A DNA stretch of 64,000 nucleotides from Streptomyces sp. NBC_00335 (GTDB lineage: Bacteria; Actinomycetota; Actinomycetes; Streptomycetales; Streptomycetaceae): the NCBI RefSeq assembly GCF_036127095.1, contig NZ_CP108006.1, positions 2,976,001 to 3,040,000 on the forward strand. The letters are read 5' to 3'. Position 1 is the first letter of the stretch; each line of letters opens with the position of its first letter. Shown in pieces: positions 49,457 to 64,000 of this stretch. Both the position numbers and the translations under genes were made by a program. Below the pieces are notes generated by a model. That model was not told the origin of the DNA. It was given only the letters and a program-made list of their open reading frames with translations, and did no database searches.

Positions 49457-50461
49457 ATGGCGAAGAAGTTCCTGCCCGCCACCCTGCTCACCCTGACCGC
49501 CGCCCTCACCCTCGGCGCGGCCCCCGCCGCCACGGCCTCGGGCGGCGGAGCCCCGGACGGCGCGGGCTCGCGTACCCGGATCGACACGGCCTTCACCCTG
49601 CCCGGCGAGCAGGTCTTCCCGGAGGGCATAGCCGCCGACCCCCGCACCGGCACGGTCTACGTCGGCTCCTACAAGGACGGCACCGTCTACCGGGCCCGCT
49701 CCGGCGGACGCGCGGCGGAGGTCTTCCTGCCGCCGGGCACCGACGGGCGCCACACCGCGAACGGACTGCGGGTCGACGGGCACGGCCGGCTCTGGGTGAC
49801 CGACTCCACCTCGGGCGTCTGCGTCTACGACACCCGCTCGGGGGCCCGTACGGCCCGCTTCGAGATACCCGGGAGCGGGCCGCGCTTCCTCAACGACCTG
49901 GCCGTGACCCCGGACGGCACCGCTTACCTCACCGACAGCGTCCGCGCGGTGGTCTACCGGGTCACCCCGGAGCAACTGGCCTCAGGATCCGGCCCCTTGC
50001 AGGTGGCGTACGACCTGAGCGGGCGGCTCACCCCCTCCCCGGCGGGCAGCTTCAGCCTCAACGGCATCACCGCGGACCCGGCCGGGCGGTTCCTGCTCAC
50101 CGTCGACATGACGGCCGGGGACCTGTACCGCATCGACCCGGCCTCCGGCGCGGTCTCCCGCGTGACGCTGACCGGCGGCGATCTGAAGACCGCCGACGGG
50201 CTCGACCTCGCACCCGGCGGGGTGCTGCGCGCGGCCCAGAACACGCGGAACGCCCTGAGCCGCTGGCAGGTGTCGGCCGACGGCACCCGGGCCCGCCTGG
50301 TCCGCACCGTCACGGATCCCTCGCTCCAGATCCCGACCACGCTGGTCCGGGTGCCGGGGCGGACCCTGGTGGTGCGGTCCCAGTTCGACAAGGACGGCGG
50401 GGTGCTGCCCTCCACGGGCGCGCCGACCGGGTTCACGGTCGCCTCGGTCCGCGGGTTCTGA
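49457..50461 (+). CDS. Secreted SMP-30/NHL-type beta-propeller protein
   Basis: 334 aa with an N-terminal signal peptide (LPATLLTLTAALTLGAAPAATA) and repeated blades of the SMP-30/gluconolactonase type (EGIAADPRTGTVYVGS, GLRVDGHGRLWVTDS, DLAVTPDGTAYLTDS, GLDLAPGGVLRAAQN). It might be a lactonase or a binding protein; metal-site residues cannot be assigned with confidence. GAAGAGGA lies before the ATG. It is controlled by the divergent MarR operator-promoter. Convergent with the response regulator gene. Confidence 0.88.
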   Translation: MAKKFLPATLLTLTAALTLGAAPAATASGGGAPDGAGSRTRIDTAFTLPGEQVFPEGIAADPRTGTVYVGSYKDGTVYRARSGGRAAEVFLPPGTDGRHTANGLRVDGHGRLWVTDSTSGVCVYDTRSGARTARFEIPGSGPRFLNDLAVTPDGTAYLTDSVRAVVYRVTPEQLASGSGPLQVAYDLSGRLTPSPAGSFSLNGITADPAGRFLLTVDMTAGDLYRIDPASGAVSRVTLTGGDLKTADGLDLAPGGVLRAAQNTRNALSRWQVSADGTRARLVRTVTDPSLQIPTTLVRVPGRTLVVRSQFDKDGGVLPSTGAPTGFTVASVRGF

Positions 50462-50470
50462 CCCGCGGGT

Positions 50471-50487
50471 CCGGCGGGTCCCGCCGG
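50471..50487. terminator. Short inverted repeat between convergent genes
   Basis: 8-bp arms (50471-50478 with 50480-50487) around a single base; the real loop would be wider. It sits between convergent genes 35 bp apart. Confidence 0.35.
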
Positions 50488-50496
50488 CGGGATCCG

Positions 50497-51186
50497 TCAG
50501 CCCCGCAGGTAGGCCAGGACGGCGAGGACCCGGCGGTGGGACTCCTGCGCGGGGGGCAGGTCGAGCTTCATCAGGATGTTCCCGATGTGCTTGCCGACCG
50601 CCGCCTCGGAGACGGTGAGCCGGCGGGACACCTCGGCGTTGGAATGCCCCTCGGCCACCAGGGCGAGGACCTCCCGCTCGCGGGCCGTCAGCCGCTCCAG
50701 GGGGTCGCGCCGGCGGCTGATGAGCCGGCGCACCACCTCGGGATCGACCACGGTCCCGCCGGCCGCCACCCGCGCGACCGCGTCGAGGAACTCCTCCACC
50801 TGCCCGACGCGGTCCTTGAGCAGGTACCCGACGGCCGTCCCGTCGCCGGAGTCGAGCAACTCGGTTGCGTACGAGCGCTGCACGTACTGGGAGAGGACCA
50901 GGACGGGCAGGTCCGGGCGGGTCTCGCGCAGCCGCACGGCCGCCCGGAGCCCCTCGTCGGTGTGGTCCGGGGGCATCCGCACGTCGGTGACGACGATGTC
51001 CGGCCGGTGCTCGGCGACGGCCGCTTCGAGCGCGGCGGCGTCGCCCACGGCCGCCACCGTGCGGTGCCCGAAGCGGGCGAGCAGCCCGACGAGGCCCTCG
51101 CGCAGCAGCACGGAGTCCTCGGCGAGGACCACGCGCAGGGGCGGCCGGGAGGCTCCGGCGGGGGTGGCCTCCCTCGCCGGGTTCAC
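50497..51186 (-). CDS. LuxR/NarL-family response regulator
   Basis: 229 aa. Receiver domain: acidic pocket AEDS, phospho-acceptor Asp in DIVVTDVRMPP, Lys in YLLKDRV. Output domain: LTAREREVLALVAEGHSNAEVSRRL with the LuxR recognition helix. The GTG at 51186 overlaps the kinase stop by 4 nt (GTGA). Paired with the sensor kinase upstream and probably regulating the divergent FtsX-type permease. Confidence 0.93.
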   Translation of the reverse strand: MNPAREATPAGASRPPLRVVLAEDSVLLREGLVGLLARFGHRTVAAVGDAAALEAAVAEHRPDIVVTDVRMPPDHTDEGLRAAVRLRETRPDLPVLVLSQYVQRSYATELLDSGDGTAVGYLLKDRVGQVEEFLDAVARVAAGGTVVDPEVVRRLISRRRDPLERLTAREREVLALVAEGHSNAEVSRRLTVSEAAVGKHIGNILMKLDLPPAQESHRRVLAVLAYLRG

Positions 51187-52505
51187 GCCGCCCCCTGGGT
51201 ATTCGGCGTCTTCGCCGTCTTCGGTGCCTTCGGTGCCTTCGGAACGCAAGGGATCTCCACACGCAGCAGGGTCGGACCTCCGGGAGGACTGGTCAGGGTC
51301 AGTCTGCCGTCCACGACGGACACCCGGTCGGCGAGCCCCGTGAGCCCGCTCCCCCGTCCGGCGTCCGCGCCGCCCCGGCCGTCGTCGGCCACCTCCAGCG
51401 CGAGGCGGGTTCCGTCGTGTCGGCCGGTGACGGTGATCCGGCCCGCCCCGCTGTGCTTGGCCGCGTTGGCCAGGGCCTCGCTGACGAAGAAGTACCCGGC
51501 GGACTCGGCCTGTTCGGGCAGCCGGCCGGGGAGGTCGACGTCGGTGTCGACGGGGATCGGCGAGCGGTCGGCGAGGTCGGCGACGGCGTCGGGCAGGCCC
51601 CGGTCGGTGAGCACCTGAGGGTGGATGCCGTGGACGAGCTCGCGCAGCGAGGTCAGCGCCTGCCCCGCCTCGGCGTGCGCGGCGGCCAGTTGCCCGGCGA
51701 GCGCACTGCCCGGCGGGGCGTCCAGCCGGGCCAGGCCCAGGGTCATGGACAGGGCGACGAGCCGCTGCTGCGCGCCGTCGTGCAGGTCCCGTTCGATACG
51801 CCGCCGCTCGGCGTCGAAGGCGGCCGCCAGCCGGGCCCGGGAGCTGGTCAACTCCGTTACCTGAACGGCCAGATCGCCCTGTGCCGGGCCGAGCATCAGC
51901 CGGGCCAGGGCCGCGCGGGCCGCTGCCGCCGCGCCGAGCCCGTAGAGGAGGAGCGGGAGGAGCAGCAGGCCGGCGGCGGCGCACAGCAGGGCCTGGGGGT
52001 AGCCGGTGATGCCGTGGATCTTGAGCGGGTTGACCCGTTCCCCGTCGAGGGCGAGCAGGACGGGGGTCGCGAGGAGGTCGACCGGCAGCAGGAGCGCACC
52101 GACGGCCAGCAGTTCCAGCGGCCACAGCAGGGTGGCGGCGAGCACCGCGTAGCCGAGCTCCCGCCAGGTCGCCTGCTCGCGGAAGCGGGTGCGGGCCCAC
52201 GCCGCGAGCCCCGTACGGTCCGGATCGCGGTGCGGGTCGGGCAGCGGCGCGGAGCCGGGGTCGAGCAGCCGCAGCCGGCGGCGCTCGACGGCCGCGAAGG
52301 GTACGCCGGCCAGCGCGAGGGCGCCGAGCAGCGGAAGCCCCACCAGGACGACGGCGAGCGCCGTCCCGCAGACGGCGAGCAGCGTCAGCAGGGTCAGCGC
52401 GAGGGCTCCGGTGACGGCGCCGCCGAGCAGATAGCCGACGGCGCGCCAGGGCCGGGCGGAGCGCAGGTAGCGGCCCGGGAACGGGACGGGGAAGTTGGGC
52501 GGCAT
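51183..52505 (-). CDS. Sensor histidine kinase (NarL-partner, HisKA_3 type)
   Basis: 440 aa. Four membrane helices in the N-terminal half (a sensor domain of two helix pairs separated by a ~70-residue cytoplasmic loop). Dimerisation/phospho-acceptor helix RRRIERDLHDGAQQRLVAL with the acceptor His, and an ATPase domain with ALANAAKHSGA and DDGRGGAD...GSGLTGL. A Lys/Pro/Ala repeat tail (KAPKAPKTAKTPNT) ends it. Start uncertain: the ATG at 52505 begins at the first conserved segment; the ATG at 52553 would add 16 residues. Divergent from the permease gene with a very short gap. Confidence 0.9.
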   Translation of the reverse strand: MPPNFPVPFPGRYLRSARPWRAVGYLLGGAVTGALALTLLTLLAVCGTALAVVLVGLPLLGALALAGVPFAAVERRRLRLLDPGSAPLPDPHRDPDRTGLAAWARTRFREQATWRELGYAVLAATLLWPLELLAVGALLLPVDLLATPVLLALDGERVNPLKIHGITGYPQALLCAAAGLLLLPLLLYGLGAAAAARAALARLMLGPAQGDLAVQVTELTSSRARLAAAFDAERRRIERDLHDGAQQRLVALSMTLGLARLDAPPGSALAGQLAAAHAEAGQALTSLRELVHGIHPQVLTDRGLPDAVADLADRSPIPVDTDVDLPGRLPEQAESAGYFFVSEALANAAKHSGAGRITVTGRHDGTRLALEVADDGRGGADAGRGSGLTGLADRVSVVDGRLTLTSPPGGPTLLRVEIPCVPKAPKAPKTAKTPNTQGAA

Positions 52506-52614
52506 GGGTTCACGGTAGGCGGCGAGCGCGGGCGGCGCGGTAGGGCTGGCCATACCTTCGGGACTCGCCCCTGCCCCGCTGACCGGGGGCCGTGCGGCCG
52601 GTTGGCTGGGGACC

Positions 52615-54534
52615 ATGCTGAAGATCGCGTTGAAGTCGCTGCGGCGGCGCTGGACGACACAGGTGGGAACCTTCGTGGCGGTGGCCCTGGGGGTCGCGCT
52701 GATGACGGTCATGGGACTGGGGCTCGCCGCGTCGGCGGCGCTGCCGGCGGGGGCCGAGGTGGTGGGCCTCAACTCGATGCTGGGCACCGCCGGCGGGGTG
52801 AGCTCCTTCGTGGCGGCCTTCGTGGTGGCGTCGACCTTCTCGTACGCCGTGGCCGCGCGGCGCCGCGAGCTGGGGCTGCTGCGGCTGAGCGGGTCGACGC
52901 CGGGGCAGCTGCGGCGCCTGGTGATGACGGAGGCGGCGGCCGTCGGGCTGGCCGGATCCGCGGCCGGGCTCGCCCTGGGCCGGGAGGGTGCCCCGCTGAT
53001 GGCCCGCTGGACGGTGGCGCAGGGGCTGGCGCCCGCCGGGTACGCGATCGGGGATCAGACCTGGCCGCTGCACGCGGCGTTCTGGACGGGACTGCTGGTC
53101 GCGCTGTCGGGTGCGTACGCCGCTTCCCGGCGGGCGGGCCGGGTCGGTCCGCTGGAGGCGCTGCGCGAGGCCGTGACCGACGAGCGGCCCATGACCCCGG
53201 GCCGCTGGGTGGCCGGGGGCGGGCTGCTGCTGTGCGCGGTCGCCTTCGTGGGGTGGCGGCTCGGGTCGGACCCGGGCGCGCTGCTCAAGCGCAAGACGTA
53301 CACCGTGCAGCCGATGCTGCTGATCTCCGCGTGCGGGCTCCTGGCGCCCGTGCTCGTACGGCCCGTCGTACGGCTGCTGATGTGGCTTCCGGCCCGGCTG
53401 ACCTCCTACGCGGGCCGGCTGGTGCGGGCGAACGCGTCCGCCGGGATCCGCCGGACGGCCGCGGTGGCGGCCCCGGTGCTGGTGATGGTCGCGCTGACCG
53501 GATCGCTGCTGGGCTCGGCCTGGACCCTGAAGGAGGCCAAGGCCGCTGAGGCCGGTGCCCGGACCGGCGCGGACTACGTACTGACCGGAGGGCGGCTGCC
53601 GGACTCGGCGGGATTCTCCGGAGTCCCGGGGGCGAGCGCCCTCGCGGTGGCCGATACCCGGCTGACGGTGCTGGAGGAGGGGTTCGTGAAGGTGCCGACG
53701 GAGGCCTTCGCGGTCGATCCGGCGGCGCTGGCGGAGGTCTCCCGGCTGCCGGTGGTGGCGGGCTCGGTCGCGGACCTGGACGACGGCGGCATCATCGTCA
53801 CGCAGGAGTGGTGGCAGCACCGGGTCGGGGACTTCGTACCGCTGTGGCTGGCGGACGGCACCGCGGTCCGGCTGCGGATCGTGGCCGTGATGCGGACGGG
53901 CACCGGCGACAACGGGGCCTACGTGACCCCGCGCAACGCGCCCGGCGCCGAGGTCTCGCGCATCGAGGTCAAGGTCCCCGCGTCCGCGTCCGCGTCCGCG
54001 GCCGCGTCGGTCCGCGGGGCGGCGGCCCGGTACGGGGCCACGGCCCACACCAAGGAGGAGTGGCTGGCGGCGACGCACCCGCGCATCAACCGCTTCACGG
54101 TGCTCGGCTACGTCCTGGTCCTGGGCATCGCCCTGCTCTACACGGCGATCGCGCTGGCCAACACCCTGCTGATGGCCACCTCCGACCGGGGCGGCGACCT
54201 GCGCCTGCTCCGGCTGGCCGGGGCCACCCGCGGCCAGGTGCTCGCCGTGACGACGGCCGAATCCCTGCTGGCCGCCGGGGTCGGCGCCCTCCTGGGGACG
54301 GCGGTGACCGCGGTCAACCTGGCGGGCATGCGCGCCGCCCTCGCGGTCCTCGGGGTCGACTCGCCGGTGGTCGTGCCCTGGCTGGCGATGGGCGCGGTCG
54401 CCGGTGTCTGCGCCGCGCTCTCGGTCTTGTGCACGCTGCTGCCGGCGGCCCGCGCCCTGCGCCGCCGGGCGGGGCGGCGCAGGGTGCGGGCGGGTGAAGT
54501 GCCCGCCATCGCGGCCGGGTTGACCTCGGGCTGA
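52615..54534 (+). CDS. FtsX-like ABC permease, without adjacent ATPase
   Basis: 639 aa. MacB/FtsX-type permease: N-terminal MLKIALKSLRRRWTTQVG, several membrane helices, cytoplasmic loops with RRRELGLLRLSGSTPGQLR and RGGDLRLLRLAGATRGQVL (two copies of the FtsX coupling motif), and an external domain with a run of Ser-Ala repeats ([12 protein letters not shown]). Normally such permeases pair with a LolD/MacB-like ATPase encoded beside them; none is present between the two-component genes and the SARP gene. The two-component system next door probably senses an envelope-active compound. Confidence 0.88.
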   Translation: MLKIALKSLRRRWTTQVGTFVAVALGVALMTVMGLGLAASAALPAGAEVVGLNSMLGTAGGVSSFVAAFVVASTFSYAVAARRRELGLLRLSGSTPGQLRRLVMTEAAAVGLAGSAAGLALGREGAPLMARWTVAQGLAPAGYAIGDQTWPLHAAFWTGLLVALSGAYAASRRAGRVGPLEALREAVTDERPMTPGRWVAGGGLLLCAVAFVGWRLGSDPGALLKRKTYTVQPMLLISACGLLAPVLVRPVVRLLMWLPARLTSYAGRLVRANASAGIRRTAAVAAPVLVMVALTGSLLGSAWTLKEAKAAEAGARTGADYVLTGGRLPDSAGFSGVPGASALAVADTRLTVLEEGFVKVPTEAFAVDPAALAEVSRLPVVAGSVADLDDGGIIVTQEWWQHRVGDFVPLWLADGTAVRLRIVAVMRTGTGDNGAYVTPRNAPGAEVSRIEVKVPASASASAAASVRGAAARYGATAHTKEEWLAATHPRINRFTVLGYVLVLGIALLYTAIALANTLLMATSDRGGDLRLLRLAGATRGQVLAVTTAESLLAAGVGALLGTAVTAVNLAGMRAALAVLGVDSPVVVPWLAMGAVAGVCAALSVLCTLLPAARALRRRAGRRRVRAGEVPAIAAGLTSG

Positions 54535-54553: not shown

Positions 54554-55693
54554 TCAGTCCAGGGTCGGGGCCTGGCGCAGGATCTCGACCTCGAGGCGCT
54601 GGAGCGCGGGGCTCGACGAGATGCCCAGGTCCTCGGCCATGCGCCGCTGGTGCATCCGCAGCACCGAGAGCGCATCGGCCTGCCGCCCGGCCCGGTACAG
54701 GGCCAGGCTGAAGAGTTCGCAGCCGTATTCGCGGAGCGGATGGGCCTGGGTGAAGCCCGCCAGTTCCGAGACGGCCACTTCGTGGGCGCCCACGGCGATC
54801 AGGGCCGCGCAGCGACCCTCGACCACCGAGAGCCGCAGCTCTTCCAGGCGTACGACCTCGGGCGACACGTGGGTGGCGTCGGAGACTTCCGCGTACGCCT
54901 CCCCCCGCCACAGGGCCAGCCCGGCCTCGAACTCTTCGAGGGCCCGCTGCGGGTCGCACCGGTCCAGTGCCTGCCAGCCGGCGGTCGCGCATGTGCCGAA
55001 CCGGTGGGCGTCTACGTCGACGGCACTGCTGTCGAGTAAGTAGCCGCGCCCCCGGGTGCGCAGTACCTTCGCGGGCTTGCGCGGCGCGCGGTCGGGCTCC
55101 AGCACCCGACGGAGGTTGGCGATGTAGGCGTGCAGCGAGGAGATCGCCGACTGGGGCGGCTGTCCGTCCCACAGCGCTTCCACCAGCACGTCGACCGACA
55201 CGGGCTGGCCCACCTGGCTGACCAGCAAGGTGAGCGCCGCGCGCTGCTTGGTCGCCCCGAGGTCGACGTACCGGCCTCCGATGGTGGCCTCGATCGGACC
55301 CAGCACCCGGAACTCCACCTTGGTCGGGGTTGCGTCCCTGGTCTCCTCGGGGTCCTCCTGCGCCCACCGGACCCCGCCGTGCGGCCGTGGTGCGGGCGAC
55401 CGGGGCGCGACGGCGTGCGCACCGGTCCGCTCGCGCGCCATCTCGAAGACGGCGGCCGGGGGCGGGGACTGGAGATCGAGCTCCAGTGCCATCGTGAAGT
55501 ACATCTTCAGGGTCTCGTTGGCCTGCCGGAGTTCGCGTACTTCCCGCTCCAGCTCGGCGACGCTCCGGGTGCTCCTGCTACTGCCTCCCAAACGCTGTCC
55601 GACGACAATGTCCGTACCGCGTCTACCGCCGCCCCTGAGGTCTGCGGTCAACACACCGAAATCAATTTCTTCGTTCACTGCCTCTGTACTCAT
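54554..55693 (-). CDS. SARP-family pathway regulator (AfsR/DnrI type) with N-terminal coiled coil
   Basis: 379 aa. Residues ~125-215 form an OmpR-like winged helix (EFRVLGPIEATIGG, LGATKQRAALTLLV, LRTRGRGYLLD). The bacterial transcriptional activation domain follows (~220-375, VDVDAHRF, ALALWRGEAYAEV-like, VRLEELRLSVVEGR). The first ~100 residues are unusual for SARPs: a predicted coiled coil, VAELEREVRELRQANETLK, resembles the leucine-zipper end of IS3-family OrfA transposases. A TTA leucine codon (minus strand of 55037-55039) in GYLLD implies bldA dependence. GGGGGAG precedes the ATG at 55693. It probably activates the cluster to its right. Confidence 0.9.
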   Translation of the reverse strand: MSTEAVNEEIDFGVLTADLRGGGRRGTDIVVGQRLGGSSRSTRSVAELEREVRELRQANETLKMYFTMALELDLQSPPPAAVFEMARERTGAHAVAPRSPAPRPHGGVRWAQEDPEETRDATPTKVEFRVLGPIEATIGGRYVDLGATKQRAALTLLVSQVGQPVSVDVLVEALWDGQPPQSAISSLHAYIANLRRVLEPDRAPRKPAKVLRTRGRGYLLDSSAVDVDAHRFGTCATAGWQALDRCDPQRALEEFEAGLALWRGEAYAEVSDATHVSPEVVRLEELRLSVVEGRCAALIAVGAHEVAVSELAGFTQAHPLREYGCELFSLALYRAGRQADALSVLRMHQRRMAEDLGISSSPALQRLEVEILRQAPTLD

Positions 55694-55990
55694 CAAGCTC
55701 CCCCGAAAGATGCGTACGTCCCGGCCTGAGCCGGATGACGAGTGTCGTCACCTCTGCACGAGGAAGGATCCAGCATCCCGATCAAGAATGACAACCCCCG
55801 TTGAAAATCTCGTGAGTTGAACATTGGCCAGCCGGATCCCGTATGCCCGGGGAAGTAGATCCGGGCAGCGTTCGCAATCCACCGGGCCCTCGTGCGGTGG
55901 CGTTCCGCCCGTCAGTGATCATGCCGGGAGCGCCGGGGTGGGGCCCAATCCGCTTCCCCTCCGTCCGGCGCTCCGCAAAAGAGCCGTCGA
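55694..55990. other. Intergenic region upstream of the SARP gene
   Basis: 297 bases, lower in GC than the surroundings near 55740-55830. It should carry the SARP promoter; GTTGAA occurs twice (55800 and 55816). The methyltransferase terminator is at 55927-55974. Confidence 0.45.
55927..55974 (-). terminator. Hairpin after the methyltransferase gene
   Basis: 10-bp perfect stem (55927-55936 with 55965-55974) with a 28-nt loop, 16 nt past the methyltransferase stop; a TTTT precedes it on the minus strand. Confidence 0.6.
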
Positions 55991-56989
55991 CTACCGCGCG
56001 AAGATCAAAGTGGTCGGCGAAGGCGTGCTCTGGAAGGTGATTTCCCCGAAGCCGGCCTTGGTGAGCCAGTCGTGGTAATCGGCTCGGCGCCAGGTGCCCC
56101 CGTGCCTGCTCTTGAGCAGCATTTCCGAGGCGAAGGTCAGCGCGAAGGGAGGGCCGCTGCGGTCGTCCTCGACGATGTAGTCGGAGATGATCAGCGTGCC
56201 GCCGGGCTTCAGGGCACTGCGGGCTTTGGCGAAGATCGCGATGTTGTCCTCCGGCCCCTCCTGATGGGCGATGTTGGAGTACATCACGATGTCGTGCGCC
56301 GAGTCTCCGAAGCCGGTGGTGTGGAAGTCCCCGTCGATGTAACTGACGCGGTCGCCCACGCCCCGTTCGGCGAGCAGGCGGCGGGCGATCGAGTTGATCG
56401 GCTCCCAGTCGAGCTGGGTCGAGCGCGCCTCGGGGTTCAATTCCAGCCAGATGCCCGAGCAGATGCCCGATCCGCCGCCGATGTCGAGGATCGAGATCTC
56501 CCCGGCCTCCGACAGCCGCAGCGTCTCTGCGGCGATCTTCGCGACCGGAACGGACTGCGCGGCGATGGCCTGGACGAGGTTCTCCCAGTGCGGGTTGTCG
56601 GCCACCTCCACGACCGCGTCCGCCAGCGGGCCGCCGGCGCGGACCACCTCGGGCAGCACCGCAAGGCTGCCCATGTGGGCCATCTTCAGCTTGGCGAACC
56701 CGCTCAGCGATTCGGCCCGTCCCTCCACCAGGAAGGCGGACGCCTCGATGGTGTTGCGGTAGCCGTTCCCGTCCACCTCGACCAGGCCGATGCTGACCAG
56801 ACCGTCGAGGAGGGCCTGCGCGCCGCGCTCGGATATCCCGGCCCGTTCGGCCAGTCGGGCGGCGGAGCCGGCGCCGTCCTCCAGGTGCGTGAACAGGGAG
56901 TGGTGCGCCGCCGTACCGAGGATGCCGGTCGCCCAGTACCCCGTGATGAGCCGCATGATCCGATCCGACGTCGGCTTGCTGTCCGTCAT
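55991..56989 (-). CDS. SAM-dependent methyltransferase (plant-type O-methyltransferase fold)
   Basis: 332 aa. Residues 1-120 form a winged-helix dimerisation domain (LLDGLVSIGLVEVDGNGY). The Rossmann domain follows, with SAM-binding motif ILDIGGGSGICSG, LDWEPI, and the DIVMYSNIAHQEG region where the family often has a catalytic His/Glu. It ends TPSPTTLIFAR. The ATG at 56989 overlaps the THN synthase stop by 4 nt (ATGA), so the two are translationally coupled and it most likely methylates the naphthalene product on carbon or oxygen. Furaquinocin-type clusters contain methyltransferases of this kind. Confidence 0.9.
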   Translation of the reverse strand: MTDSKPTSDRIMRLITGYWATGILGTAAHHSLFTHLEDGAGSAARLAERAGISERGAQALLDGLVSIGLVEVDGNGYRNTIEASAFLVEGRAESLSGFAKLKMAHMGSLAVLPEVVRAGGPLADAVVEVADNPHWENLVQAIAAQSVPVAKIAAETLRLSEAGEISILDIGGGSGICSGIWLELNPEARSTQLDWEPINSIARRLLAERGVGDRVSYIDGDFHTTGFGDSAHDIVMYSNIAHQEGPEDNIAIFAKARSALKPGGTLIISDYIVEDDRSGPPFALTFASEMLLKSRHGGTWRRADYHDWLTKAGFGEITFQSTPSPTTLIFAR

Positions 56990-58116
56990 GCCGTCCCCAC
57001 CATGCTTCCCGAGAGCTGACGCGGCACCGACAGGGCGGCCGGCTTCGCTTCCGTGTGCTGCGGGGCAGCCGGAACCCAGCTCCCCAGGACCATTTCGGCG
57101 GTGATTCCGGGCCCGAATCCGGCGATCACACCGGTGGATCCCGTCGTCAGGCGCTCGGCTTCCTCGAACTGCCGGCGAAGGGCGTCGAAGACGACCGCGC
57201 TGGCGATGTTCCCGTATTCGGTCAGCGTGGACCAGCTGTGACGGAAGACCGTCCGGTCCACGCCCAGGAACTTGGCGAGGTCGTCCAGAATGCGGGGGCC
57301 GCCGGCGTGGATGATGTAGAAATCCAGATCGCCGATGTCCCAGCCGTGGAGCGTGGCCAGATCGCCCAGCACCGGAGCGATCGGTTCCATCGTCCCGGGA
57401 ACTCGGCGGTCGAGCTGGAAGTGGAATCCGGTGTCGCGGACGGAGTACGAGATCCAGTCCTCGGTGTTCGGAATGAGGTAGGAGGCGTTGCGCTCCAGCA
57501 GAACGCCGGCGCCGCCGCTGCCCCGCACCACCGCGGCCGCGACCGCGTCGCCGAACAGCCCGTCCGACAGGAGTGAGCCGACGTCGTCGGCATCGGGCTG
57601 GTAGCACAGCGAGCACAGCTCACAGGAGACGATCAGGACGTTGCTCTCGGGGTGTGCCACGCAGAAGTCGTGGGCGCGGTTGATGGCCGCGCCGCCCGCC
57701 GCGCAGCCGAGCTGCGCGATGGGGAGCTGCCGGGTGTCGTAGCGGAATCCCATCTCGTTGATCAGCCATGCCGTGAGCGAGGGCATCATGAACCCGGTGC
57801 ACGAGACGTAGATGATCGCGTCGATGTCCGTCGCCATCAGACCCGCGTTCTCCAGGGCCTTCTCTATGACTTCCGGGCACCGCTTCTTCGATTCCAGCTC
57901 GTAGATGCGGTTGCGTTCCTGGAATCCTGGGTGGCGCAGCGTCTTTTCGATCGGCTGGACCAGGTGCCGCTTTCGCACCCCCGTGTTCTCTATCAGTCGA
58001 AGGGCCAGCGGAAGCTGCGGCTTGCCCGCGTGCGCTTCCCTGGCGAATGCCAGAGTGTCTTCCATCGTGATGATGTGTTCCGGCACGCTCACCGAAGGCT
58101 TACATAGAATTGGCAT
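56986..58116 (-). CDS. rppA: 1,3,6,8-tetrahydroxynaphthalene synthase, RppA-type type III polyketide synthase
   Basis: 376 aa from the ATG at 58116 (a second ATG is three codons upstream, 58125). It condenses five malonyl-CoA units to THN. With this start the catalytic triad falls at Cys138 (QLGCAAGG), His270 (IIHAGG) and Asn303 (YGNIAS), the numbering known for Streptomyces RppA. The RppA-specific Cys106 (SCTGF), Tyr224 and Ala305 also match, and the N-terminus reads MPILCKPSVSVPEH like RppA. The Shine-Dalgarno is poor for both starts. It leads a two-gene coupled unit with the methyltransferase; the intergenic region upstream should hold its promoter. Confidence 0.95.
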   Translation of the reverse strand: MPILCKPSVSVPEHIITMEDTLAFAREAHAGKPQLPLALRLIENTGVRKRHLVQPIEKTLRHPGFQERNRIYELESKKRCPEVIEKALENAGLMATDIDAIIYVSCTGFMMPSLTAWLINEMGFRYDTRQLPIAQLGCAAGGAAINRAHDFCVAHPESNVLIVSCELCSLCYQPDADDVGSLLSDGLFGDAVAAAVVRGSGGAGVLLERNASYLIPNTEDWISYSVRDTGFHFQLDRRVPGTMEPIAPVLGDLATLHGWDIGDLDFYIIHAGGPRILDDLAKFLGVDRTVFRHSWSTLTEYGNIASAVVFDALRRQFEEAERLTTGSTGVIAGFGPGITAEMVLGSWVPAAPQHTEAKPAALSVPRQLSGSMVGTA

Positions 58117-58401
58117 ACCTGGCATCTATCTCTCTGACGTAGAGAATTTCTGCTGCCCTCACAGCGTGTACGTTCCCCAACATCGCGTATGGCGCTTGCT
58201 GCTGGCTTGGCGGCGACTTGCCGTTCACCGGGGCCTTTCGGCGTGCGGATTGAGGCGGATCGGCCCGTAAGCACTTTGGCCGAAACCCGTCGCCCCGACC
58301 CCGGAAACGACGGAGCCCCGGCCGGGGACGGCGACCCCTGAGGTCGTCCGCCCCCGGCCGGGGCTTCCTCGCGCCGCCGGGTGGACCCGGCGGCGCCCCG
58401 C
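58117..58401. other. Region upstream of rppA
   Basis: 285 bases. The half nearer rppA (58120-58270) is AT-richer than the neighbourhood and should carry the rppA promoter. TGGCAT recurs at 58111 and 58121, across the start codon. The other half contains the lyase terminator at 58315-58364. Confidence 0.45.
58315..58364 (-). terminator. Terminator hairpin after the CreD-like gene
   Basis: 13-bp perfect outer stem (58315-58327 with 58352-58364) and a 5-bp inner stem (58332-58336 with 58342-58346), 37 nt after the lyase stop. Confidence 0.75.
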
Positions 58402-59898
58402 CTACCGCGCCCGCGCGTGCGGGGTTCCGTCCGGGCCGGCCAACTCCTGGTCCACCAGGGCCGGTGCGGCGCCGGTGTAGCCCTCCGGGTCCAGCAGCCG
58501 GCCGATCTGGGCATCCGTCAGGTGCCGCTTCACCTTGGGCAGGGCGCCCAGGATGTCGGCCAGTGAGCCTCCGGTGCGGTCCGCCTCGGCGGATGCCCGG
58601 GTCAGCAGTTCCTTGGCCTCGGCCTTGCCGAGCCGGGGTGCCAGCACGGCGGACATCCGCTCCGAGACCACTTGGCTTCCCGTCAGCATCAGGTTCTCCC
58701 GCATCCGTTCGGGCCGTACGACCAGCCCCTCGGTCAGTTCCACGGCGGTGTGCGCGGCGCCGCCGGCCAGCCGCAGGCACTCGCGCAGCAGCTGCCACTC
58801 GGCGTGCCACACGCCGGCCGAGCGCTCGTCCTCACAGACCAGACACTGCGTCACCCCGGCCGCCAGCAGGGGCACTTGGAGTGCGGCACTGCGGATGAGG
58901 GTGGCCAGTACGGGATTGCGCTTGTGCGGCATCGCCGAGGACGCGCCGCGCCCTTCCACCGCGGGCTCGGAGACCTCTCCGACCTCGGTCCGGGTCAGCG
59001 ACTGCACGTCCACGGCGATCTTGCCCAGGGCTCCCGTGACGAAGGCCAGGGCGCCGGCGAGGTCGGCCATCGGGGTGCGCAGCGCGTGCCACGGCAGCGG
59101 CGGGCGGGCCAGGCCGGTCTCGGTGGCGTAGGCGTCCAGGAGGCGATCCACGTAATCGTGCCCCGCTCCGGGCTCGGTGGACTCCTGCGGGGCGGACTCC
59201 TGTAGGGCGGACTCCTGCGGGGCGAACTCCAGGTATCCGGCGAGGGTGCCGGCGGCCCCGCCCAGCGATACCGGCAGGCCTCCGTCGAGTACGGCTGCCA
59301 CCCGGTCCCGGGCGTCCAGCAGGAGCCTGCGCCAGCCGGCCGCCTTCAGGCCGAAGGTGGTGGGTACGGCGTGCAGGGCGAGGGTGCGGCCGGCCATGGC
59401 GGTGTCGCGGTGCCGGGCCGCGAGGGCCGCGAGGGCTTCGGCGGACCGCTCCAGGTCCGCGCGGATCAGCCGCAGCGTGCGGTCGGCGACCAGCATGGCG
59501 CCGGTGTCGAAGACGTCCTGGCTGGTGGAGCCGTGGTGGACGAACTCGGCGGCTCGCGGGGACTCGGCGGCGACCAGCCGGGTGAGTTCCCGGACCAGTC
59601 CCACCACCGGGTTCGCGGTCTCGCGCGCGACCAGCGCGAGTGCGCGCACGTCCAGCAGTTCGGCCCGCGCCACGCGGGTGATGACCGCGGCCGCCTCGGC
59701 GGGCACGCTGCCGGTCTTGGCCTGGGCGCGGGCGAGGGCCGCCTCCGCGTCGAGCATGGCCTGCAGCCAGGCCAGGTCGGAGGTGACGGCCTCGGCGGGC
59801 GTACCGGCCCTGACTGGGGAGAGCAGCCCGGCGTCGGGTCCGTACCCGGCCGGGTCCCGCGCCGTGCCCGGCGCGCTCGCGGTGGGGTCTGCGCTCAT
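58402..59898 (-). CDS. CreD-like nitrosuccinate lyase (fumarase/aspartase superfamily)
   Basis: 498 aa. Superfamily signature SSAMPHKRNP (residues 320-329) and the substrate loop HHGSTSQD (121-128) place it with adenylosuccinate lyase and carboxymuconate cycloisomerase. A short QES repeat (227-241) interrupts the helical core. Because it is coupled (ATGA overlap) to a CreE-like flavoenzyme, I read it as the nitrosuccinate lyase that releases nitrous acid and fumarate in the aspartate-nitrosuccinate pathway described for cremeomycin. The superfamily is seen directly; the specific reaction is inferred from the pair. Alternatives are a pcaB- or purB-like enzyme, but no partner genes for those pathways are present. 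Confidence 0.85.
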   Translation of the reverse strand: MSADPTASAPGTARDPAGYGPDAGLLSPVRAGTPAEAVTSDLAWLQAMLDAEAALARAQAKTGSVPAEAAAVITRVARAELLDVRALALVARETANPVVGLVRELTRLVAAESPRAAEFVHHGSTSQDVFDTGAMLVADRTLRLIRADLERSAEALAALAARHRDTAMAGRTLALHAVPTTFGLKAAGWRRLLLDARDRVAAVLDGGLPVSLGGAAGTLAGYLEFAPQESALQESAPQESTEPGAGHDYVDRLLDAYATETGLARPPLPWHALRTPMADLAGALAFVTGALGKIAVDVQSLTRTEVGEVSEPAVEGRGASSAMPHKRNPVLATLIRSAALQVPLLAAGVTQCLVCEDERSAGVWHAEWQLLRECLRLAGGAAHTAVELTEGLVVRPERMRENLMLTGSQVVSERMSAVLAPRLGKAEAKELLTRASAEADRTGGSLADILGALPKVKRHLTDAQIGRLLDPEGYTGAAPALVDQELAGPDGTPHARAR

Positions 59899-61883
59899 GC
59901 GTTCACCTCGATGTGGTCGGTGGGCGAGTGCCGGTACCGTCCGGGCGGACCGGCTGTCCGAGGGGCGACGGGCAGGGCGAGCACGGCGCAGGCGATGGCG
60001 TCCGCGTCGCCGAGCGTCATGGAGTTGACCCCGGGGCGGCTCCCGGCGGCGGTCACCCAGTGCACCGCCTCGGTGGGCACCCCGTAGGCGAACCGGCGCG
60101 GGTGGGCCCGGCCGCCGGCGTCGACGAGCCGGTAGGGGCGCTCGGTCACGGCCAGGCCCTTGGTCTCGTACGCGATCCCGCAGGCGCCCTCGATGCGGTG
60201 GCGGGCGGCCTGCCCGCTCTCCAGCAGGTCCCGCAGCAGCGGTTCCGCCGTGCGCGGCAGGTCGGGCTCCGGGAGCCGGGCCTCGACGAGGGCCGTGGCC
60301 GCCACCGGGGCGCCGGGAACCACGTCGGAGGTGACCGTGAAGACGGCCTCGCGGTCGTCCGCGGCCGGGGCGTGCAGCCGTACGCCGGGTCCGAGGACCT
60401 CCACGACTCCCGCCTCGATCAGCGCGATCAGTTCCTCGATGCGCGAGGCGGGCGGCCCGATGGAGAGGAACGCGTTGAGCGGGGTGTACCAGCTCTGGAG
60501 GTCGTCCCGGTAGGAGGCGCCCTCCAGCTTTCCGTGATCGACGGCCAGGCGTATCTCGTTGCGCAGGTCGCGCAGCACGTCCAGGGCGGACTTCAGCGGG
60601 CCGTGGACGTTTCCGGCCCTGGCCTGGCGCACGTCCTCGGCCAGGTGCGCGAGGAGCCAGGCCCGGTGGTCGGCGCGGCCTCGCAGGACGTGGTCGCGGT
60701 AGGGCCGGGCGAGCCTCTCCCAGTCCCAGCGGTCGTGCGGGGCGATGCCGGCGGAGTCCAGCAGCCGGCCCTCGGACGCGGGGTCCGGCGCGGCCAGGTA
60801 GTGCTCGACGAAGGATGCGCGCTGCCGCTCCCGCCCCCGGGCCGCGAGCAGGGCGCCGTAGTAGACGCCCTCGACCTCCTTGGCGATCAGCGGCCACAGG
60901 TCGGTGAGGAAGTGCAGCCGCTCGCCGTCCTGCGCTCGCCGGTGCAGCCGGTCGATGGCCCGGGGCGTGAGCAGCCGTGGCTCGTGGCGCTCGTACGGGC
61001 CCTTCTGGTTCTCGCCGCGCGCGTGGTACGGGACGCCGCGCCGGGAGCCGGCGACGATGTTCGGCTCCCGGCCCGAGGGCAGGTAGCGCAGGGCGCCGCC
61101 CTCGCGGGCGAAGGTGCCGCCGCGGCCCTCGGTGAGCAGCGCGAGCACGTCGAAGCAGTTCAGTCCGAGGCCGCGGACGAAGACCGTCTCGCCGGGCGCC
61201 ACCACGGAGAAGTCCACGTCGGCCGGGTTCGAGGGACCGATGTACGTCAGCCCGTGCGCGGCGGCGGCCCGCGCGAGCGCGCTCTCGCCGCGGGTGGGCC
61301 GGGCGGGCACGTGGCCCAGGGAGAGGACCACGGCGTCCAGGCCGGTGAGCCGTGTGCCGTCCGCCAGCTCCAGGGTCTGCGGGCCGCCGTGACCGGCCTC
61401 GTCGGTCAGGGCCACGGCGCGGGTGCGGTGCTCGACGATGGTGACGTGCCCGGGCGCGGCCTCGGTCACCGCGCGGAAGGCGTCCTCCAGGTAGGCGCCG
61501 TAGAAGGCGCGGGTGGGGTAGTCGTCGGGGCCCAGCCGGCGGGCCTCGGCCAGCGCCTCGGCGGGCAACCGGTCGCGTACCGCGGGCTCTTCGGCGTCGC
61601 GGGCGAGGGCGGCCGCCCACTCGTACAGGCTGGGGCCCTCCTCGACGGGGCCGTCCATCAGCACGCTGTGGTCGGTGTAGACGGTGACCTGCGAGGCCAC
61701 GGTGTTCATCAGCAGCTGGCGCGGCTGCTCGGTGCGCCACACCCTGCCGGGGCCCGGTGCGTGCGGCTCGACGACGTGCACGGTCACCGCTCGGTGGGAC
61801 GGGGATTTGCGCTCGTTGGCACAGAGCCGCTCCAGGACCGCGAATCCGCGCGGCCCCGCGCCGACAAGGGAGACCGTAAGCAC
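59895..61883 (-). CDS. CreE-like flavin-dependent L-aspartate N-monooxygenase
   Basis: 662 aa. N-terminal dinucleotide-binding motif VSLVGAGPRGFAVLERL (residues ~3-20), LLMNTVASQVT, a second nucleotide-binding region FVRGLGLNCFDVLALL, and a long C-terminal part with NSMTLGDADAIA, all as in the FAD/NAD(P)-binding proteins that pair with CreD-like lyases. CreE oxidises L-aspartate stepwise to nitrosuccinate. The GTG at 61883 is chosen because GAGGAG lies 5-6 nt upstream; a GTG at 61889 abuts it. Coupled to the lyase by a 4-nt overlap. Function is inferred from family plus pairing. Confidence 0.85.
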   Translation of the reverse strand: MLTVSLVGAGPRGFAVLERLCANERKSPSHRAVTVHVVEPHAPGPGRVWRTEQPRQLLMNTVASQVTVYTDHSVLMDGPVEEGPSLYEWAAALARDAEEPAVRDRLPAEALAEARRLGPDDYPTRAFYGAYLEDAFRAVTEAAPGHVTIVEHRTRAVALTDEAGHGGPQTLELADGTRLTGLDAVVLSLGHVPARPTRGESALARAAAAHGLTYIGPSNPADVDFSVVAPGETVFVRGLGLNCFDVLALLTEGRGGTFAREGGALRYLPSGREPNIVAGSRRGVPYHARGENQKGPYERHEPRLLTPRAIDRLHRRAQDGERLHFLTDLWPLIAKEVEGVYYGALLAARGRERQRASFVEHYLAAPDPASEGRLLDSAGIAPHDRWDWERLARPYRDHVLRGRADHRAWLLAHLAEDVRQARAGNVHGPLKSALDVLRDLRNEIRLAVDHGKLEGASYRDDLQSWYTPLNAFLSIGPPASRIEELIALIEAGVVEVLGPGVRLHAPAADDREAVFTVTSDVVPGAPVAATALVEARLPEPDLPRTAEPLLRDLLESGQAARHRIEGACGIAYETKGLAVTERPYRLVDAGGRAHPRRFAYGVPTEAVHWVTAAGSRPGVNSMTLGDADAIACAVLALPVAPRTAGPPGRYRHSPTDHIEVNA

Positions 61884-61970
61884 CAACACTCCTCACACAC
61901 AGGTTCCGGCTCGGTCAGGGACGTACGGGGGCGGGCGCGGGCGTGGAAGTGGGGACGCGCTTCGCGGGAC

Positions 61971-62003
61971 GGCGCGGCAGCAGCCGAGTCCTGCTGCCGC
62001 GCC
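61971..62003 (-). terminator. Intra-cluster hairpin after the aminotransferase gene
   Basis: Perfect 13-bp stem (61971-61983 with 61991-62003), 7-nt loop, 6 nt past the aminotransferase stop and 87 nt before the CreE-like gene on the same strand. It may attenuate expression of the nitrous-acid genes or split the cluster into two transcripts. Confidence 0.65.
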
Positions 62004-62009
62004 GGGGGT

Positions 62010-63146
62010 TCAGCGGCCGCGCGCGTGGGTGCGCAGCTCGGTCCGCAGGACGCTGACGACCCGCTCGACCTGCGCCTCGGTCAGCTCGGCGTGCATCGGG
62101 ATGGCCAGGTTGCGCTGGAAGAGGTCGGCCGAGACCGGGCAGCGGCGCTTGGACTGGTACACCGGCTGCACGTGGGTCGCCCACGTGCCGTGTCCGCAGC
62201 CGATGTCCTGGGCGCGCAGTGCGGCGGCGAGGCCGGCGCGGTCCACGCGCGGGTCCAGGGTCACCATGTAGGACTGCCAGGCGTGGGTGCGGTCCTCGGG
62301 GACGTGGGGCAGCGTCAGGAGCTCTTCCTGAGCGAGGAGTTCGCCGTACCGGGCGGCGACGGCGCTCCGGCGGACCAGCAGTTCGTCGATGCGGCCCATC
62401 TGCACCCGCAGGATCGCGGCGGCGATGTCCGACATCTTGTAGTTGTAGCCGATGTCGGTGAACTCGGGGATCGGCAGGCCGACGACCTGCGACTGGTCGA
62501 AGATGCTGCCGATGCCGAAGGAGGACCGCAGTCGCGCGTCCTGCCCGATCACGGGATCGGCGGAGAGCAGCGCGCCGCCCTCGCCGCTGGTGGCTCCCTT
62601 GCGTCCGTGGAAGGACAGGCAGGCCACCGGTGCCAGGGTGCCGGCCTGGCGCCCCTGGTAGGTGGCGCCGACCGAGCAGGCGGCGTCCTCGACCACGAAC
62701 AGTCCGTGGCGGTCGGCGATCGCGTTCAGCTCGGCGTAGTCGGCGGGCAGGCCGACCGTGTCCACCGCGATGATGCCGACGGTCCGCGGCCCGATCAGGC
62801 TCTCCACCGCCTGCGGGTCCACGGTGCCGGTGTCGGCGCGCACGTCGGCGAAGACGGGGACGGCGTCGACGTAGCGCACCGCGTGGGCGGGGGCCGGGAA
62901 GGTGTAGTCGGCGACGATCACCTCGTCGCCGGGTTCGACGCCGAGGGCGAGCATCGCCAGGTGGAGGGCCGCGCCGCAGTTGCTGAGCGAGACGGCGTCG
63001 CCCACCCCGTAGCGCTCGACGAGCTGGGCCTCCAGCGCCTTGCCCTGCGGGCCCTGGCCGGCCGGCCAGCCCGAGGAGAACACCTCGGCCACGGCGGCCA
63101 GTTCCTTCTCTCCCAGACTCGCGTGAACGAGGGGAATCCTGTCCAT
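62010..63146 (-). CDS. DegT/DnrJ/EryC1/StrS-family PLP aminotransferase
   Basis: 378 aa. Fold-type I, the sugar-aminotransferase family: PLP Lys183 in LSFHGRKGATSGEGG, Asp154 in VEDAACSVGA, and cofactor-phosphate contacts in LSNCGAALHL. In this cluster the likely acceptor is not a sugar: related enzymes in THN-derived pathways (Fur3, as I recall) aminate a hydroxynaphthoquinone to an 8-amino-flaviolin-type product. The ATG at 63146 is chosen because GAGAGGTG lies 8 nt upstream; a GTG at 63155 is too close to it. The cupin gene precedes it by 15 bp. Confidence 0.9.
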   Translation of the reverse strand: MDRIPLVHASLGEKELAAVAEVFSSGWPAGQGPQGKALEAQLVERYGVGDAVSLSNCGAALHLAMLALGVEPGDEVIVADYTFPAPAHAVRYVDAVPVFADVRADTGTVDPQAVESLIGPRTVGIIAVDTVGLPADYAELNAIADRHGLFVVEDAACSVGATYQGRQAGTLAPVACLSFHGRKGATSGEGGALLSADPVIGQDARLRSSFGIGSIFDQSQVVGLPIPEFTDIGYNYKMSDIAAAILRVQMGRIDELLVRRSAVAARYGELLAQEELLTLPHVPEDRTHAWQSYMVTLDPRVDRAGLAAALRAQDIGCGHGTWATHVQPVYQSKRRCPVSADLFQRNLAIPMHAELTEAQVERVVSVLRTELRTHARGR

Positions 63147-63161
63147 GGTGGTCACCTCTCG

Positions 63162-63719
63162 TTACGCCGTGCGGTCGGTCGCGGACCGAAGATTCGCAAG
63201 GGCGGGCGGTTCGAAACGCAGGGGCGTGATCTGGTTGACGTCATAGCGTTCGCGCATCAGCCGGACGGCCTCGGCGTCCACCGAGGGGCCGGCGGAGAAG
63301 ATCTCGACGATCTCGTCGAAATAGTGCTCGTGATCGGGTGAGGGATAGCTCTGGAAGAGCATCCGCGCCGGTTCGTCCGAGGCATTGCGAAAGGCGTGCG
63401 GGGTGCCCGGGGGGACGAACATGCAGCTGCCGGCGGTCGCGCGGACGGCCTTGTCCCCGGCGGTGGATTCCCAGGTGCGCCACGTGTCCGTCGTGCGTTC
63501 GGCGGGCTCGAACGCCAGAAGTTCCAACTCCCCTTCCAGGACGTAGAAGAACTCCTGCGACTTGGTGTGGGTGTGCGCGCCGACGTCGAATCCCGGCGGC
63601 ACGATCACTTCGAAGACCGAGAAGGAAGAGCCGTCCGCCGCGGTGACCTTGAAGGTCACGTCCTGTGCCTTCGTGACCAGCTTTCGCCCCTGGCCGGGTG
63701 GAACAATTAGCCCGCTCAT
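63162..63719 (-). CDS. Cupin-domain protein, candidate THN oxidase
   Basis: 185 aa, one cupin barrel. Metal ligands fit cupin motif 1, GAHTHTKSQEFFYVLEG (His49, His51, Glu56), and motif 2, MFVPPGTPHAF (His108). Cupin-type oxygenases such as MomA oxidise THN to flaviolin-type quinones, so this gene could supply the quinone that the aminotransferase next to it uses. That is inference from context. GAGGAA lies 9 nt before the ATG. It is the first gene of this run in the window; the cluster is likely to continue to the right. Confidence 0.85.
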   Translation of the reverse strand: MSGLIVPPGQGRKLVTKAQDVTFKVTAADGSSFSVFEVIVPPGFDVGAHTHTKSQEFFYVLEGELELLAFEPAERTTDTWRTWESTAGDKAVRATAGSCMFVPPGTPHAFRNASDEPARMLFQSYPSPDHEHYFDEIVEIFSAGPSVDAEAVRLMRERYDVNQITPLRFEPPALANLRSATDRTA

Positions 63720-64000
63720 GTGATTGGTTTCCTCGTAGTCGCTGCGAATTCCCGCTCGAACGCGAGCGGCCCGACGGCCTCTGGCGCGGGCCGGCCGGGT
63801 ACGCCGAGGCCCGCCCGCTTCAAGCCGGTTGACTGGAGGGGGCAGAGGTTCCTCCCCCGTCCCCCGCGAGGGCCGCGCCGCGCGCCGGACGGACGGAATT
63901 GCGTGCGGTGCGGTGCGAAGACATTCAGGAGGAACGGCCCGACCCGTCTGACGGCTTTGAGCCGCCCCCTCTGTTTACTGACCTCGGAACTCCTGCTTCC
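63720..64000. other. Region upstream of the cupin gene, window end
   Basis: 281 bases without a gene I can support. It includes a small 7-bp hairpin (63752-63758 with 63763-63769) in the probable leader of the cupin mRNA. The cluster promoter is probably here, but no clear -35/-10 is visible. Confidence 0.4.

Follow-up and report, generated by a model that had tools for sequence, protein, structure and literature searches.

A tetrahydroxynaphthalene gene cluster with nitrous-acid genes and a class II terpene cyclase in Streptomyces sp. NBC_00335: a probable amination, diazotisation and nitrogen-loss route

What does a gene cluster built around a tetrahydroxynaphthalene (THN) synthase do with enzymes for the production of nitrous acid? 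The question is raised by the right end of a 64,000-nucleotide stretch of DNA from Streptomyces sp. NBC_00335 (the window, G000:C1:2976001-3040000 of a 9.0-Mb genome) and by the adjoining sequence of the same genome, which is numbered here from window position 64001 (L005). Our analysis suggests that both parts together probably make up a whole meroterpenoid cluster based on THN, akin to those of furaquinocin and marfuraquinocin, which would combine amination, diazotisation, loss of N2 and the attachment of a terpene, with a THN-derived sesquiterpenoid as its predicted product. This sequence of amination, diazotisation and traceless nitrogen loss has been published for furaquinocin, as related in PMC12670698 and PMC12814520. 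The 'traceless' idea thus fits the cluster, which very probably builds a naphthoquinone-sesquiterpene compound by this detour. Its chemistry is already known from relatives, but in this branch it is joined to another combination of terpene cyclase and prenyltransferase.

The nitrous-acid core and the proposed route

The first-pass annotation of the window had listed seven genes on a single strand, all of which are present on the minus strand, with their families borne out by matches to profiles and PDB entries and their couplings by overlapping reading frames. Two of these genes account for the putative supply of nitrous acid. CreD (58402..59898), a nitrosuccinate lyase of the Fur17 type, scores 776 bits on the curated model NF052556, whose cut-off is 650, remains below the cut-offs of three models for 3-carboxymuconate cycloisomerases of the PcaB type, and finds its best PDB match in the CreD structure 5xny (569 bits, with the runner-up at 262 bits). 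An affiliation of this lyase with enzymes unrelated to nitrous acid, which would have spoken against the initial proposal, did not occur, since the protein passes the curated cut-off for nitrosuccinate lyases. CreE (59895..61889), whose stop codon overlaps the ATG of CreD in an ATGA-type overlap, has 8cp2 as its sole PDB match (662 bits), which identifies it as a flavin-dependent L-aspartate N-oxygenase of the Fur16 type; the code is named in a paper on an L-aspartate N-hydroxylase (PMC10404684). The protein also contains an NAD_binding_9 domain (137 bits), and no NCBIfam model matched it at E<=0.001.

The pair is flanked by genes for the naphthalene core. The type III polyketide synthase of the Fur1/RppA type (56986..58125) matches best with 1u0m, which we take to be the Streptomyces THN synthase (576 bits, compared to 142 bits for the runner-up), and it contains the Cys, His and Asn motifs. 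Its stop codon is overlapped, again in ATGA-type manner, by the ATG of a gene for an S-adenosylmethionine-dependent methyltransferase of 332 residues with Methyltransf_2 and dimerisation domains (55991..56989), which is proposed to be an O-methyltransferase of the Fur4/MfqH type. On the other side, a pyridoxal phosphate-dependent aminotransferase of the DegT family (Fur3/NapB3 type; 62010..63155; DegT_DnrJ_EryC1, 318 bits), the proposed source of 8-aminoflaviolin, is separated by 6 bp from the gene of a cupin of 185 residues (63162..63719; Cupin_2, 68 bits), which resembles the THN oxygenase Fur2. The expected catalytic motifs are present in the cluster proteins that were tested, with the exception of one of two cupin patterns, which was unmatched. 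A SARP-family activator (54554..55693; BTAD, 123 bits; Trans_reg_C, 42 bits) completes the set; in the marfuraquinocin (mfq) cluster, the product requires overexpression of the SARP MfqF (PMC12814520).

The region recognised initially is the left half of the cluster, which continues for about 12.3 kb beyond window position 64000. This right half opens with a polyprenyl synthase on the plus strand (L005:540-1643, or 96-1643 in a longer frame that scores 160 bits), whose gene is divergent from that of the cupin. It is followed on the minus strand by an MMPL exporter (L005:1792-3900), a class II terpene cyclase (L005:4106-5743), an FAD oxidase of the berberine-bridge type (L005:5882-7426), an FAD aromatic hydroxylase (L005:7617-9383), an ABBA prenyltransferase (L005:9480-10424) and an AMP-binding enzyme of the AMP-ligase type, which is similar to Fur5 and NapB4 (L005:10641-12257). 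The first-pass annotation had pointed to this sequence as a place where an ABBA prenyltransferase, a diazo-processing enzyme and mevalonate genes might be located. The prenyltransferase was found, together with a prenyl-diphosphate synthase, and the AMP-ligase-type enzyme is of a kind that has been proposed to carry out the diazotisation, but no dedicated diazo-reducing enzyme is recognisable and none of the scanned cluster genes is a mevalonate gene. A search of the genome for HMG-CoA synthase returned two fragments in a single frame of 812 amino acids, 0.8 Mb away (G000:C1:2196406-2197296), which matches models of the HMG-CoA synthase C-terminus and the chalcone synthase N-terminus.

Taken together, both halves provide the early-pathway kit of furaquinocin (fur1-5 and fur16/17), with the counterparts of fur1, fur2, fur3 and fur5, as expected for a furaquinocin-type amination and deamination of THN, all residing in one cluster. 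In Table 3 of PMC9686526, fur16 and fur17 are described as FAD-binding protein and 3-carboxymuconate-cycloisomerase-like protein, which we read as counterparts of CreE and CreD. In the proposed route, THN made by the synthase would be oxidised to a quinone by the cupin and converted to 8-aminoflaviolin by the DegT enzyme, whereas CreE and CreD would produce nitrous acid from aspartate. The AMP-ligase-type enzyme would then use nitrous acid to diazotise 8-aminoflaviolin, and reduction with loss of N2 would lead to pentahydroxynaphthalene (PHN), the predicted substrate of O-methylation by the methyltransferase. The class II cyclase would act on a prenyl diphosphate, most likely of C15 length, which the ABBA prenyltransferase would attach to the ring either before or after cyclisation, with the hydroxylase and the berberine-bridge-type oxidase completing a product that is exported by the MMPL protein, while the SARP would turn the cluster on. 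The early pathway is well supported by homology, and its chemistry up to O-methyl-PHN is inferred from the published relatives, where 8-diazoflaviolin and a diazonium are named as intermediates with reference to a recent study, where deletions have shown MfqH and the prenyltransferase MfqW to be required for marfuraquinocins, and where most other steps are termed hypothetical (PMC12814520). Our own extrapolation beyond that comprises the C15 donor, the terpene chemistry and the sequence of its steps, the final oxidations, the product and its export, the loss of nitrogen rather than its retention and the reductant for this loss. The oxidase starts with an N-terminal stretch resembling a twin-arginine export signal and may thus act outside the cell; it also contains the GGH and GxC motifs of doubly bound FAD.

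Conservation of the amination genes and alternative explanations

The association of these genes extends to related genomes. Among 295 genomes of the genus, 22 (including the one described here) encode the aminotransferase with at least 76% identity, and the next matches do not exceed 42%. The loci of these 22 genomes, several on short contigs, all contain the THN synthase, whereas a cupin is seen in 21 of them, an AMP-ligase in 19 and CreD in 10. From a second collection of 130 named loci, the best 80 were kept, each not longer than about 21 kb, 67 of which hold the aminotransferase at 75% identity or more. Named relatives in this collection, with identities of 94-96%, agree with the assignment of the window to Streptomyces. 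These 67 include 64 with the THN synthase, 64 with the cupin, 55 with the AMP-ligase, 47 with the methyltransferase, 36 with the ABBA prenyltransferase, 16 with CreD and 11 with the cyclase, and the order fur1-2-3-4-5 (PMC9686526, Table 3) is kept in 15. With THN synthase and cupin each found near the aminotransferase in 64 of 67 loci, the association of these genes is beyond chance. In one genome (G068), two equal-scoring copies of the aminotransferase (C1:199784-200917 and 11923893-11925026) reside near both ends of a 12.1-Mb contig, and its cluster is thus probably located in terminal inverted repeats. In the genome of NBC_00335 itself, another protein that is distantly related to the aminotransferase (42%) is encoded at G000:C1:395964-397082.

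The distribution of CreD is less uniform. At E<=1e-150, a threshold that was picked after the list had been seen, homologues are found in 82 of 295 genomes, comprising 20 of 22 with the aminotransferase compared to 62 of 273 without (one-sided Fisher test uncorrected for shared descent, 1.7e-10). At E<=1e-90, the threshold of the search itself, the corresponding numbers are 20 of 22 and 172 of 273 (p 0.005). In 12 of the aminotransferase genomes CreD is missing from the examined locus, 10 of which contain it elsewhere. Sister clusters that lack CreE/CreD, some in genomes with CreD at another place and a few in genomes without any, offer a natural test of how strictly the enzymatic production of nitrous acid is required for the detour.

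The idea that a THN-derived quinone is aminated and then diazotised with nitrous acid made by the pathway is supported, as it fits everything we tested. Several observations nevertheless weigh against the complete route. The AMP-ligase-type enzyme reaches 85 bits on the model for the diazotase AvaA6 (NF058622), far below its cut-off of 975, and the same score is obtained for the marfuraquinocin-type enzyme. No reductase for the loss of nitrogen is evident in the cluster, with the quinone oxidoreductase of marfuraquinocin clusters missing, and no C-methyltransferase of the Fur6 type is found among the scanned genes, Fur6 itself not having been compared directly. Finally, the kit is present in G766, G778, G779, G270 and G155, some of which are drafts, but at E<=1e-100 none of them contains a homologue of CreD, and they thus either use another source of nitrite or have assemblies that miss the gene. 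Nitrous acid from CreD would, in light of these five genomes, not always be required.

These observations bear on the alternatives. Equivalent early steps could lead to a product that keeps its nitrogen as diazo, hydrazone or amino group, in the manner of the diazo-napyradiomycins, furaquinocin L and flaviogeranin B. There is precedent in the existence of diazo-napyradiomycins (PMC10897937) and amino-flaviogeranins (PMC7463872) and in the acetylhydrazone of furaquinocin L (PMC9686526), and the fact that no nitrogen-removing reductase is recognisable among the scanned genes points in the same direction. The methyltransferase, however, is 78% identical to the MfqH-type enzyme of a marfuraquinocin-type cluster, whose route has been proposed to proceed via PHN, and thus after the loss of nitrogen, with MfqH proposed to act on PHN (PMC12814520), which leaves retention a minor, though not negligible, prospect. 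The AMP-ligase-type enzyme could instead be an ordinary acyl or aryl ligase, with any diazotisation occurring spontaneously. Its best general matches are indeed acyl-CoA ligase families and structures, and it is no equivalog of AvaA6. Its recurrence next to the aminotransferase in both collections, in 15 of the named loci in the place of fur5, its resemblance to NapB4, which a review lists as putative diazo-forming enzyme (PMC11705231), and the reported conservation of a diazo-forming enzyme across furaquinocin (fur), naphterpin, furanonaphthoquinone and napyradiomycin (nap) clusters (PMC12670698) make this explanation decidedly improbable.

We regard it as even less credible that nitrous acid from CreE and CreD serves another purpose and that their location is fortuitous. 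CreD-like genes are widespread in the genus (192 of 295 genomes at E<=1e-90) and the pair is missing between THN synthase and aminotransferase in G294, G051, G766, G768, L119 and L128, with CreE alone found at this place in G767. Against chance stand the seven own and sister clusters that hold both genes there (G000, G277, G151, G016, G764, G765 and L078, the last from the strain of G321), the enrichment of CreD in genomes with the aminotransferase and the counterparts fur16 and fur17 of the furaquinocin cluster (PMC9686526, Table 3). We thus favour a pathway in which nitrogen is introduced, diazotised with nitrous acid from the cluster and subsequently lost.

Cyclase motif and prenyltransferase lineage

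A second feature that distinguishes the cluster concerns its terpene part. Residues 23-530 of the cyclase align with 7xq4 (238 bits), which we take to be SsDMS, with its DVDD sequence (residues 315-318) placed on DVDD of this structure, as expected for a class II enzyme with a DxDD motif. The third position of this motif acts as general acid in class II cyclases. The clade surrounding the protein contains 87 members before identity drops to 50%, in addition to one fragment at 69%. The first and third Asp are present in all 87, 50 of which show DxDD, whereas in 37 the fourth position is occupied by C, S or T; among 33 listed proteins that do not belong to the clade, 4 likewise have a Cys at this position. 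Oxidosqualene cyclases, which open epoxides, carry Asp-Cys at the matching place, which we consider as a lead only.

The motif changes together with the prenyltransferase. Among 20 loci, 15 contain the prenyltransferase lineage found in NBC_00335 (at least 64% identity), 14 of them with DVDD and one with DVDS (G773, where CreD is found on the cyclase-bearing contig), whereas all four loci with the MfqW lineage show DVDC. Motif and lineage thus go together in all assignable loci but one (18 of 19), and DVDD is distributed 14/15 versus 0/4 between both lineages (Fisher test, uncorrected for relatedness, 0.0013). The remaining locus (G356, L211-L212) encodes a member of the cyclase clade (70%, DVDC) with neither prenyltransferase lineage and no THN genes in the 40 kb examined; next to this cyclase are an ABBA prenyltransferase (49%) and a gene that weakly matches phzE (53%). 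At 70% identity or above, members of the clade are encoded by 6 of the 22 aminotransferase-bearing genomes of the genus and by none of the other 273, and in an enlarged sample of 392 genomes the clade is found in 10, one of which (G356) has no THN genes nearby. A class-wide sample of 394 genomes contains it in the genome of NBC_00335 only; the evidence that it extends beyond Streptomyces comes from loci of Actinomadura and Actinoplanes and from matching proteins.

In a tree of 67 prenyltransferases, comprising 65 of 74 extracted sequences (leaving out presumed duplicates of G genomes and L079) and the two of NP-1717, the strain used here to represent mfq, the protein of NBC_00335 belongs to a group of eight, all from cyclase-bearing clusters (SH-aLRT 99), whereas the MfqW-like sequence is placed apart from it, beside its counterpart in strain Ru71 (SH-aLRT 97). 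The trees of the cyclase and the AMP-ligase additionally omit L081, although it is not a duplicate, and all were calculated as quick trees without bootstrap. The split is not maintained throughout the clusters. The DVDD members are not all joined in one supported group of the cyclase tree, and the AMP-ligase is 81% identical to that of NP-1717 compared to 73-76% to those of DVDD Streptomyces clusters outside its closest kin. Judged from these sequences, the clusters are thus mosaics.

The order of cyclisation and transfer could be reversed, with the cyclase acting on the already prenylated naphthalene instead of a free diphosphate, as suggested by the proposal that MfqW moves a linear farnesyl group (PMC12814520). 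We consider this order a serious contender but the less probable one, as class II drimenyl diphosphate synthases, the sequence kin of the cyclase (7xq4), act on farnesyl diphosphate itself (PMC11035983) and as the lineage of the prenyltransferase shifts with the motif of the cyclase, as expected for a changed donor. On a more tentative level, and with doubts outweighing our confidence, the cluster might belong to a line that is sister to those of marfuraquinocin. In this line, a DVDD cyclase that starts its reaction by protonation would work together with a separate lineage of prenyltransferases, and a bicyclic sesquiterpene of the drimane type would be attached to the THN core after deamination. 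If true, cyclisation would be triggered at an alkene in the DVDD enzymes and at an epoxide, or in an otherwise altered manner, in the DVDC enzymes of the marfuraquinocin type. The change from Asp to Cys at the fourth position would then be the mark of this natural switch, with the prenyltransferase changing along with it. The joint change makes it possible to test how the terpene portion of THN compounds is exchanged in bacteria. In the literature searched, no paper was found to describe THN genes in combination with a DVDD class II cyclase and a prenyltransferase of this lineage, which is weak evidence for novelty as subscription papers were mostly outside its scope.

Borders of the cluster and comparison with known systems

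On its right side, the cluster is followed by the housekeeping gene ychF (L005:12508-13596). On the left, genes for a histidine kinase and an FtsX-type permease adjoin the SARP (window positions 51183-54534). Across 102 loci and regions, many of them too short to cover this flank, the FtsX gene was seen only in the region itself, in G277/L077 and in L078, as was the kinase gene, with a weak match of the latter (46%) in L140. Since both adjoin the cluster only in close relatives, apart from this one weak match, we have rejected the left flank (49457-54534) as part of it and place its border probably at the SARP.

The initial annotation had suggested a meroterpenoid of the furaquinocin or naphterpin type or something new as product; among the clusters described so far, that of marfuraquinocin is the most closely related. 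Compared with furaquinocin, counterparts by family of fur1-fur5, fur7, fur16, fur17 and fur19 (PMC9686526, Table 3) are present in a different gene order, and the cluster adds a class II cyclase, an oxidase and a hydroxylase. The single methyltransferase (Methyltransf_2) among the scanned genes and the missing mevalonate genes set it apart from furaquinocin clusters proper. With napyradiomycin and azamerone it shares a core of the napB1-B4 type, which has been reported as common (PMC12670698), but an identity with these clusters was set aside, as no (vanadium) haloperoxidase is present among the scanned genes. The clusters for avenalumic and p-coumaric acid (ava, cma) follow the same logic on another scaffold, where CreE/CreD, the ATP-dependent diazotases AvaA6/CmaA6 and AvaA7 cooperate in diazotisation and nitrogen loss (PMC10777205). 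They are distinguished by their diazotase model, on which the AMP-ligase scores so low, and by AvaA7, as no reductase of this type was recognised in our cluster. With respect to bacterial class II drimenyl diphosphate synthases, the cyclase belongs to a separate clade and resides beside THN genes and an ABBA prenyltransferase, with no Nudix hydrolase among its scanned neighbours. Drimane-quinoline compounds such as streptoquinoline were set aside, since they contain a quinoline without THN core (PMC12862604).

The closest described cluster is thus that of marfuraquinocin from Streptomyces niveus SCSIO 3406 and Streptomyces sp. S4.7, whose table of 24 open reading frames (ORFs) contains the same tailoring set (PMC7987185) and is matched in gene order and sizes by NP-1717. 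Both share the cyclase, the FAD oxidase, an FAD hydroxylase of 588 residues, the exporter, the methyltransferase and the SARP in addition to the THN kit (65-81% to NP-1717). Identities to NP-1717 amount to 71% for the cyclase, 77% for the exporter, 81% for the cupin, 85% for the aminotransferase, 79% each for methyltransferase and THN synthase, 65% for the SARP, 66% for the oxidase and 70% for the hydroxylase. The values are similar for the examined part of the marfuraquinocin-type cluster in G344 (cyclase 71%, exporter 77%, cupin 81%, aminotransferase 86%, methyltransferase 78%, THN synthase 79%), and across the marfuraquinocin-type clusters cupin and methyltransferase are 80-81% and 78-79% identical to their counterparts. 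Neither phzE, phzB and phzG, the phenazine genes of marfuraquinocin clusters, nor their quinone oxidoreductase and Pur8-like transporter found a match in the 35-kb region described here. The prenyltransferase is only 44-45% identical to both prenyltransferases of NP-1717 and separate from them in the tree, and thus outside the MfqW lineage, and DVDD of the cyclase contrasts with DVDC of the marfuraquinocin type. The cluster of NBC_00335 also contains CreE/CreD and a prenyl synthase, which are both missing from the 24-ORF table of mfq. Being compact and apparently complete, with its own supply of nitrous acid and prenyl diphosphate synthase, it could therefore permit the whole amination-diazotisation-deamination detour to be rebuilt from one locus.

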